64,000 bases of DNA from an uncultured Pseudomonadota bacterium (GTDB taxonomy: Bacteria > Pseudomonadota > Gammaproteobacteria > Steroidobacterales > Steroidobacteraceae): positions 62,001-126,000 of the forward strand of contig CAIOZU010000017.1 in assembly GCA_903862885.1 (NCBI GenBank), in the 5' to 3' direction. Position numbers and translations under genes: made by a program. The notes below the pieces were generated by a model. It did no database searches. It was not told the DNA's origin and saw only the letters and a list, made by a program, of their open reading frames with translations. Below are positions 5,275 through 7,189 of the stretch, piece by piece (within the stretch, counting starts at the first letter, position 1; the number at the start of each line of letters is the position of its first letter).

Positions 5275-5307
5275 AAAAAAAATCCCAACCGATAAGAGTT
5301 GGGATTT
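5275..5307 (-). terminator. Rho-independent terminator of the tRNA gene
   Basis: On the minus strand AAATCCCAAC and GTTGGGATTT form a 10-bp stem with an 8-nt loop followed by a run of T residues, 8 bp past the tRNA CCA end. This is a textbook intrinsic terminator for the tRNA transcript. Confidence 0.85.
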
Positions 5308-5314
5308 CACATTT

Positions 5315-5660
5315 TGGTGGGCCCGCAGGGACTCGAACCCTGAACCAAGGGATTCACTGTTCCCCACGATTTCCCGTGGGAGTGGACTATCTCTTCACCC
5401 TCGCCGTTTTTTAAAACGACGGTCGGGTGCGGGACGCTCCTGCCTGTTATTAAGAGCATGTGGGGCCAAACCCCAGCTCTCAGGTAGTCTCTGCACCTTC
5501 CGGCGGTTCACCGCCGGCTTGGCTCAGGGTTGCCATCGGACCTAGTCCGGTCAGGGTTCCCTGAATTCATCCCGTCCACTTCACGCGTTACCCCGTGAAG
5601 GCACCTTCCCGACTGTTCGAGTCGATGAGTCCCCTGCTCTAACCGTTGAGCTACAGGCCC
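5315..5660 (-). tRNA. tRNA-Ile2 (CAU anticodon) gene interrupted by a group I intron
   Basis: Exon 1 is 5625-5660 and exon 2 is 5315-5354. Joined, they give a 76-nt tRNA: acceptor GGGCCTG pairs with CGGGCCC, D-arm GCTC/GAGC, anticodon stem GGGGA/TCCCT with loop CTCATAA, T-arm CAGGG-TTCGAGT-CCCTG, discriminator A and an encoded CCA. The anticodon is CAU. I favour the minor isoleucine tRNA, whose C34 is changed to lysidine by TilS, because the anticodon stem (GGxGA/TCxCT) resembles E. coli tRNA-Ile2 and the Azoarcus group I intron sits at the same place in tRNA-Ile(CAU). Elongator tRNA-Met is the alternative. The intron breaks the gene after the anticodon U, so splicing is needed for function. 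Confidence 0.85.
5355..5624 (-). ncRNA. Group I self-splicing intron (IC3-like), 270 nt
   Basis: The insertion has group I hallmarks in the right order on the minus strand. The 5' splice site follows CAU; an internal guide GUG (5602-5604) can pair with CAU to give the obligatory U-G pair. P2 is formed by CTTCACG/CGTGAAG. The core stretch GATGGCAACCCTGAGCCAAGC is very like Azoarcus. R is GTGCAGAGACTA (5485-5496) and S is GAAGAGATAGTCC (5384-5396), with GACTA/TAGTC forming P7. A P9 hairpin CCCACG/CGTGGG follows and the intron ends in G (position 5355). It encodes no homing endonuclease. The Azoarcus intron is about 205 nt; the extra length lies in the P1 loop and in the region between R and S. 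Confidence 0.88.
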
Positions 5661-5755
5661 ATTGCCAGTCTAGCAAGAGCGGCGGCCTCCCGCGCGTCTA
5701 CGCGGGCAACAAGGCCATACCCTAAGTGTCGCGTCGGCCTTACACTCTGACCCCT

Positions 5756-7189
5756 ATGAACACTCTTTTACTGGTGGGTCTGGGTGCACTCGCAATAGGC
5801 ACCCTCGTGGGGTTTTTAGTGGGCGGGAATCGCCGAGCCGCTCAATTTGAGCAACGCCTGCTCGATGAAACGCGCTTGAGAAGTGCGGCGGAGGCGGCCC
5901 TATTGCAACTGGATCGACTCAAAGAAGACCTCGCCCGCCGCGATCAAGAGCTATCCACGGTGCGAACCGAGGCCCGAACCCTCAGTGAAAACAGCCATAC
6001 GCTAGCGGCCCAATATGCCGCCCAAAGTGCCGCCCTCGCCGATGAACGAAAGCTCTTAGAAAGCGCCCAAGCACAGCTCACCGATGTCTTTAAATCCCTC
6101 GCCGCTGACACACTCAAGGCCAACAACCAGCAATTCATGGATTTAGCGAAATCCCAGTTTGAGACCCTACAAAAATCAGCCCAAGGCGATCTCGAAAGCC
6201 GCCAACAAAGCTTTGCCCAGCTGGTCCAGCCGGTGCGGGAGTCGCTTGAAAAGGTACAAACCAAGATAGGCGAGATCGAAAAAGACCGCGTGGGCGCTTA
6301 CAGCGCCCTGCTGACACAGGTCGAACATTTGGCGGTCGGCCAGTCGGACTTGAAACGCGAAACCGGCAACCTGGTCGGTGCCCTGCGTCGACCCACCGTC
6401 CGCGGCCGCTGGGGCGAATTGCAACTTCGCCGGGTAGTGGAACTGGCCGGCATGCTGGGCGAAGTGGATTTTGTGGAACAGGAAAATGTCTCCACTGAAA
6501 ACGGCGATTTGCGGCCGGATCTGGTGGTGAAGCTGCCCGGTGGTAAAAGCCTCATTGTCGACGCCAAAGCCCCGCTAGAAGCCTATCTGGACTCCCTAGA
6601 GCTCACCGATGAAACCGCACGTTCGGCGAAATTAGCTGATCATGCACGCCAAATTCGCGATCATATAAACAAATTGTCGCAAAAACAGTACTGGGGCCAG
6701 TTCGCCAACAGCCCAGAGTTTGTGGTGTTGTTTATCCCTGGGGAGGTGTTTTACAGCGCCGCCTTAGAGCAAGACCCGACTCTCATTGAGGCCGGGATCA
6801 ACAAAAAGGTGATTTTGGCGACACCAACCACACTGATCGCTTTACTGCGTACCGTGGCCTACGGCTGGCGACAAGAAGCCTTGGCTGACAATGCCCAGAA
6901 GATCGCAGACCTCGGCCAAGAACTGTATGAGCGCTTGCAGGTGATGGCCAGTCACTGGAACAGCATGGGGGCGGGTCTTAAGAAAGCGGTAAGCGCCTAT
7001 AACGATGCGGTCGGCTCATTGGAGTCGCGGGTACTACCGACGGCGCGCCGCTTTCGCGATCTGAATGTCGGTCGAGAGGCGAAAGAGATTGAGCTGGCCT
7101 CCCCCTTGGATGCGCTCCCTCGGGACGTGCAAGCAGAGGAGATGCGCACTCTACCCGGCCCCTCTGGACACGATCCCACCCGCAACTGA
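5756..7189 (+). CDS. rmuC: DNA recombination protein RmuC
   Basis: A 477-residue RmuC homologue, from a family whose loss affects recombination at inverted repeats in E. coli. It has an N-terminal membrane anchor (MNTLLLVGLGALAIGTLVGF), a long coiled coil (about residues 30-190) and the C-terminal nuclease-like domain. Conserved pieces are RGRWGELQLRRVVELAGM, LIVDAKAPLEAYLD and FVVLFIPGEVFYSAALEQDP. The start is set at the ATG at 5756 because the anchor begins there; a GTG at 5726 in the same frame has AAGG upstream and cannot be excluded. It is divergent from the intron-bearing tRNA gene, with about 95 bp between them. Confidence 0.9.
   Translation: MNTLLLVGLGALAIGTLVGFLVGGNRRAAQFEQRLLDETRLRSAAEAALLQLDRLKEDLARRDQELSTVRTEARTLSENSHTLAAQYAAQSAALADERKLLESAQAQLTDVFKSLAADTLKANNQQFMDLAKSQFETLQKSAQGDLESRQQSFAQLVQPVRESLEKVQTKIGEIEKDRVGAYSALLTQVEHLAVGQSDLKRETGNLVGALRRPTVRGRWGELQLRRVVELAGMLGEVDFVEQENVSTENGDLRPDLVVKLPGGKSLIVDAKAPLEAYLDSLELTDETARSAKLADHARQIRDHINKLSQKQYWGQFANSPEFVVLFIPGEVFYSAALEQDPTLIEAGINKKVILATPTTLIALLRTVAYGWRQEALADNAQKIADLGQELYERLQVMASHWNSMGAGLKKAVSAYNDAVGSLESRVLPTARRFRDLNVGREAKEIELASPLDALPRDVQAEEMRTLPGPSGHDPTRN

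Follow-up and report, generated by a model that had tools for sequence, protein, structure and literature searches.

Results

A tRNA-Ile2 gene split by an intron

The window analyzed here is a 64,000-nt stretch of DNA from an uncultured member of the Steroidobacteraceae, and thus from a gammaproteobacterium, as the first-pass annotation had read from the letters alone. Its minus strand carries a tRNA-Ile2(CAU) gene (5660-5315) that measures 346 nt in its interrupted form and 76 nt once the exons are joined, the interruption lying between positions 36 and 37 of the tRNA, directly 3' of the anticodon (Table 1). The divergent gene rmuC (5726-7189) lies upstream and neighbors the split gene in relatives of the genus as well; a scan for a consensus promoter gave no match. 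The exons had been proposed to fold into a complete tRNA with an encoded CCA, and ARAGORN, applied to the spliced sequence, returned just such a 76-nt tRNA(cat). At its default settings (introns off) the program found no tRNA gene in the window. Its intron mode offered a tRNA-Gln(ctg) with the intron placed two bases early, a solution that was overruled by the boundary rules of group I introns (a U-G pair at the 5' site and a terminal G) together with the intact relatives, which place the site after CAU. The spliced exons differ from the intact tRNA-Ile2 of two relatives (L236, L237) at a single base, in the T loop.

Table 1. Features of the split tRNA-Ile2(CAU) gene, in window coordinates
Feature	Position	Strand	Evidence
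5' exon, 36 nt, ends in CAU (acceptor 5' strand, D arm, anticodon arm 5' side, anticodon)	5625-5660	-	ARAGORN on spliced sequence; conserved in relatives
Group I intron, 270 nt, ends in G, no notable ORF	5355-5624	-	RF00028, 68.3 bits, E 3.3e-15
Extension of P1	C5624/G5605	-	
P1-loop hairpin, nearly limited to host genus	5608-5621	-	Compensatory CG/UA changes; length of splice site-GUG stretch
Internal guide GUG, pairs with CAU (P1, U-G at splice site)	5602-5604	-	P1 invariant in 35/35 relatives
P2, GUAA tetraloop	5579-5600	-	Compensatory changes at 8/9 pairs
P3 5' strand, GGACG	5573-5577	-	Invariant in genus; 83% in wide alignment (gap placement)
P4-P5-P6-P6a domain	5495-5564	-	P6a 100% paired, with compensatory changes
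R element GTGCAGAGACTA, contains P7 5' strand	5485-5496	-	RF00028 match; relatives
Extra P7.1-like stem-loop domain between P7-5' and P3-3' (CCUG...CAGG base, covarying inner helix)	5443-5484	-	In 35/35 aligned relatives; compensatory changes
P3 3' strand, CGUCC	5432-5436	-	Genus alignment
P8	5397-5428	-	Genus and wide alignments
S element GAAGAGATAGTCC, contains P7 3' strand, guanosine-binding site	5384-5396	-	RF00028 match; relatives
P9.0, ACU (5383-5381) with AGU (5358-5356)	5356-5383	-	Compensatory changes at 2/3 pairs
P9, GAAA tetraloop	5363-5380	-	Compensatory changes at 5/6 pairs
Terminal guanosine of intron	5355	-	Invariant in relatives
3' exon, 40 nt, CCA encoded	5315-5354	-	ARAGORN on spliced sequence
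Intrinsic terminator right behind tRNA gene (12-bp stem, then U run)	5275-5308	-	Fold -15.2 kcal/mol, z -4.3

The intron and the support for its fold

A covariance search with cmscan bore out the proposed group I intron, matching RF00028 from end to end (model positions 1-253) with 68.3 bits against a gathering score of 50, and the tRNA-Ile2 intron is the sole RF00028 match in the 2.79-Mb genome. All helices from P1 through P9.0 can be drawn, including a P1 with U-G at the 5' splice site and P3-P9 with the guanosine site in P7, and the guide GUG, R, S, P7, P9, P9.0 and terminal G lie on the minus strand where the first-pass annotation had set them. Judged by this anatomy, the element is a group I intron that very probably excises itself.

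Among the 13 members of a genus alignment, the drawn structure is 99.2% paired, with 15 pairs changed on both sides compared with 5.8 in shuffles. A wider alignment of 35 relatives reaches 96.5% pairing; shuffling of columns lowers this to 87.0% and sliding of partners to 33-46%. Cells changed on both sides number 200 in this alignment, compared with 53 after shuffling and 20-46 after sliding. In these 35 relatives covariation is seen in P2, P6a, the P7.1-like stem, P8, P9.0 and P9; P3, P4 and P7 are nearly invariant, and are accordingly conserved rather than probed by covariation. The lower pairing of P3 in the wide alignment reflects gap placement, mainly in one column.

Two further elements had been noted as additions to an Azoarcus-like plan. 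The hairpin within the P1 loop can be drawn in the window in two overlapping registers, CGACT/AGTCG (5624-5610) or CUCG/CGGG, the latter being the consensus of the genus, where two of the four consensus pairs alternate between CG and UA or UG. These compensatory changes show the hairpin to be real, and it is nearly restricted to the host genus, since the stretch from splice site to GUG measures 19-22 nt in all 16 genus introns and 6-13 nt in 118 of the 120 other introns of the lineage. The longer insertion between R and S likewise proved to be a stem-loop of its own, with an invariant CCUG/CAGG base and an inner helix that covaries across genera. Since it is present in every one of the 35 aligned introns of the lineage, it is not peculiar to the window intron.

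A single detected gene for reading AUA

The tRNA genes of the genome were surveyed with RF00005. In this 99.3%-complete genome the split gene is the only tRNA-Ile2 gene detected, the remaining CAU tRNAs being elongator Met and fMet, and the same survey detected no tRNA-Ile(UAU). Its identity as tRNA-Ile2 follows from the CAU anticodon, a body one base off that of the intact relatives, and the presence of tilS in the genome (137.8 bits). AUA is in use, accounting for 73 of 15,594 codons and 73 of 812 isoleucine codons in the long ORFs of the window. With one detected tRNA-Ile2, no detected tRNA-Ile(UAU), tilS present and AUA used, decoding of AUA very probably depends on the ribozyme, as had been suggested for the case that this gene were the only one. 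The assembly, in 73 contigs, is missing several tRNA genes, Ile-GAU and Ala-UGC among them, so a second tRNA-Ile2 copy could sit in an unassembled stretch, though none is found in relatives.

Distribution of the split gene

The split arrangement is not unusual; roughly every second genome of the family has it. Among 217 Steroidobacteraceae genomes, 102 carry the split pattern, 76 an intact gene, 3 both and 42 neither. The two patterns are largely exclusive (99 genomes split only, 73 intact only), and 3 genomes with both stand against about 36 expected by chance; in these three (G157, G187, G205) one copy is a 3' fragment from which the 5' half of the tRNA is missing. In the host genus 13 of 15 genomes have the split pattern and none has an intact gene; in one further genome of the genus (G100) an RF00028 match (L199) is cut by a contig end. 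The split pattern occurs in 12 of 276 genomes of a class sample, and a scan of about 85,000 species genomes yielded at least 120 further loci in Lysobacterales, Woeseiaceae, Steroidobacteraceae, Burkholderiales, Planctomycetes and an Opitutia MAG. In the loci tested (L094, L064, L214), Azoarcus-like introns fall under the RF00028 gathering score, so that surveys relying on this threshold undercount them.

Group I introns were also seen in other genes of the host's family. Three appear to lie in the T loop of the tmRNA gene (L222, L225, L232), with GGGGTTCGATT before and CCCCGCCTCCACCA after the intron; others lie in 23S rRNA genes near AACTATAACGGTCCTAAGGTAGCG (L200, L201, L209, L211, L213, L215), where L209 has two close together in one gene and L213 has one of 651 nt; and seven loci have introns in tRNA-Leu (L218, L220, L221, L224, L226, L229, L235).

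Two intron lineages at one site

Relatives resembling the Azoarcus intron (L046, L053, L064, L094, L214) share with the window intron the insertion between positions 36 and 37 of tRNA-Ile(CAU), the 3-nt guide GUG that pairs with CAU, a similar P4-P6 and P7, the R element AGAGACUA and the terminal G; position and guide logic are thus as first described. The Azoarcus tRNA-Ile(CAU) intron itself belongs to subgroup IC3 and is about 205 nt long. The 15 Azoarcus-like introns found at the tRNA-Ile2 site, on which the measured comparison rests, span 198-224 nt (median 212), begin with A or G, have the S element GAAGGCATAGTCC and keep R and S a short distance apart. By either yardstick the estimate that the 270-nt window intron is about 65 nt longer holds. 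Introns of the window type measure 225-319 nt in Proteobacteria and 252-382 nt in Planctomycetes, and all but two begin with C. The window intron carries GAAGAGATAGTCC in place of GAAGGCATAGTCC, lacks the receptor-like P8 motif CCTAAG...TATGG, and has a stem-loop where Azoarcus-like introns have a short, stemless junction between P7-5' and P3-3'. The IC3 layout has no stem at this junction, and introns of subgroup IA carry P7.1/P7.2 there. These two stems have been named as characters that separate the classes (PMC3984707).

In a tree built on 170 core columns, the Azoarcus-like introns form a clade (bootstrap/SH-aLRT 100/98) that excludes the window intron, and the window type groups with introns of Planctomycetes and Comamonadaceae, including L048 and L108 of the latter (97/85); within the window type, Gammaproteobacteria (98/93) and the host genus (100/98) are recovered. 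Because the program flagged converging long branches and bootstrap values that had not settled, the deep branches are to be read as rough. One Opitutia intron (L087) falls on the Azoarcus-like side despite a longer R-S stretch. Within Gammaproteobacteria the intron tree follows the host groups. In the Steroidobacteraceae the site is also occupied by an Azoarcus-like intron (L214/L245), and the presence of both types in one bacterial family points to at least two arrivals there. From these comparisons, we take the window lineage, common to many Gammaproteobacteria, Comamonadaceae and Planctomycetes, to be related to, yet distinct from, the Azoarcus-like lineage.

Fragments of the 3' half

Several genomes hold fragments of the tRNA 3' half, some including the intron and some not, either downstream of the real gene or at another place. 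In G205 (L244, L245; G205:C4) an Azoarcus-like intron interrupts the real gene, which is followed by two 3'-half repeats that start at CTCAT and are intronless; in G187 (L243; G187:C2) the real gene is intact and a fragment starting at CTCAT, 1.5 kb downstream, has the intron. Some fragments start at CTCAT and hold a whole Azoarcus-like intron (L058, L072, L115, L243), and others start inside the intron core (L142, L114, L066, L137). Partial copies of the split gene beside unrelated genes, starting at the anticodon or in the intron core, occur in Polynucleobacter and other Burkholderiaceae (L058, L072, L115, L142, L114, L079) and in Gammaproteobacteria (L066, L137). That of L058 adjoins a transposase-like ORF and a pair of genes that, judged by eye, resemble AbiE. 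Second copies of the intron's 3' part with the 3' exon stand at contig ends in two cases (L246, G104:C41; L242, G157:C34), a hint that 3' halves may be duplicated in genomes with the window type too. Read by eye, the ORFs beside the 3' fragments at 10 loci included no clear integrase in the flanking stretches covered. Among phages, the only match was a weak one to the core (Klebsiella phage phiKp_21, LC768485.1:2137-2226; 91 nt, 77% identical to the P2-P6 core, and unannotated there), and the plasmids searched with the intron gave none; there is hence no sign of a current vector.

Discussion

We propose that the host reads AUA by means of a split tRNA-Ile2 that would splice itself and be completed by TilS, and that its intron belongs to a lineage distinct from the Azoarcus-like one, mostly inherited vertically and retained because it is nearly neutral; we give this explanation as a whole a probability of roughly 0.93. 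Transcription of the pre-tRNA would run to the terminator behind the gene. The guide GUG and the anticodon CAU would form P1 with its U-G pair at the splice site, and, following established group I chemistry, a guanosine bound in P7 would attack after U36, whose freed 3'-OH would then attack behind the last G of the intron, kept in place by P9.0, and so ligate U36 and A37. TilS would then turn C34 into lysidine, allowing the tRNA to read AUA as isoleucine. Given the single detected tRNA-Ile2 gene, AUA reading in this host probably depends on the splicing of the intron. Efficient splicing would leave the intron nearly neutral, and its loss would require precise removal, which may account for its retention. 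The guide-tag logic has been described for the Azoarcus tRNA-Ile intron (PMC6274277).

Several other readings deserve consideration. The absence of some tRNA genes from the assembly would be in keeping with a tRNA pseudogene that harbors a degenerate intron, the true AUA-reading tRNA being encoded elsewhere. We regard this as highly improbable, as the exons and all core helices are intact, relatives show compensatory changes, the arrangement is conserved throughout the genus, and neither a tRNA-Ile(UAU) nor another tRNA-Ile2 was detected. The P1 hairpin and the P7.1-like domain might modulate splicing, in response to growth or temperature for instance; both stems are structurally conserved, and the former is nearly limited to one genus. 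Peripheral stems of group I introns usually stabilize the fold, however, and we consider a regulatory role improbable.

Somewhat less remote, though still unlikely, is an Azoarcus-type IC3 intron that was acquired horizontally and grew extra hairpins, which was close to the view of the first-pass annotation. The shared insertion site, guide pairing and similar P4-P6 and P7 sequences agree with it, and to that extent the likeness to Azoarcus stands. The window intron nevertheless falls outside the Azoarcus-like clade, and the two lineages show consistent differences in S, in P8 and at the P7-P3 junction, which speaks against a simple Azoarcus type with additions. The proposed horizontal spread of such introns fares similarly: it finds a place in the Azoarcus-like intron at the same site in the host's own family, and is opposed by the host-wise grouping of the intron tree within Gammaproteobacteria. 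Inheritance thus looks mostly vertical, with independent colonizations of one site. The 3'-half fragments look like the products of repeated recombination at the split gene, which could move introns in and out. A bolder proposal, which we advance tentatively and with some doubt, is that the two lineages colonized the anticodon-loop site of tRNA-Ile2 independently and that one route in or out is site-specific recombination at the anticodon (CTCAT), with modules swapping the tRNA 3' half together with the intron and no need of a homing endonuclease.

Group I introns in tRNA-Ile2 are already known, and the window case is one of a known kind. In Acidovorax and Burkholderia they hide the tRNA-Ile2 gene from tRNA finders, as here, and 36 genomes have been reported in which an fMet or Ile2 gene is hidden in this way (tRNAscan-SE 2.0, PMC8450103); those hosts are Betaproteobacteria, unlike that of the window. 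Cyanobacteria likewise carry, as published, a group I intron in the anticodon loop of a tRNA with CAU, here tRNA-fMet; both tRNA and host differ from those of the window (PMC8450103, PMC4033280). A review of tRNA group I introns covers cyanobacteria and a few alpha- and betaproteobacteria (PMC4033280), and in the largely open-access literature that we searched, neither tRNA-Ile introns of Gammaproteobacteria nor a two-lineage pattern turned up as the subject of a paper.

The present work contributes a well-supported case in which an essential decoding function very probably rests on a ribozyme, together with a large set of loci for comparison. Common tRNA finders miss such genes, as default ARAGORN did here, and many genomes will therefore seem to be without tRNA-Ile2. 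A bacterial family in which two intron lineages occupy the same site offers a natural setting for testing the arrival and persistence of tRNA introns.
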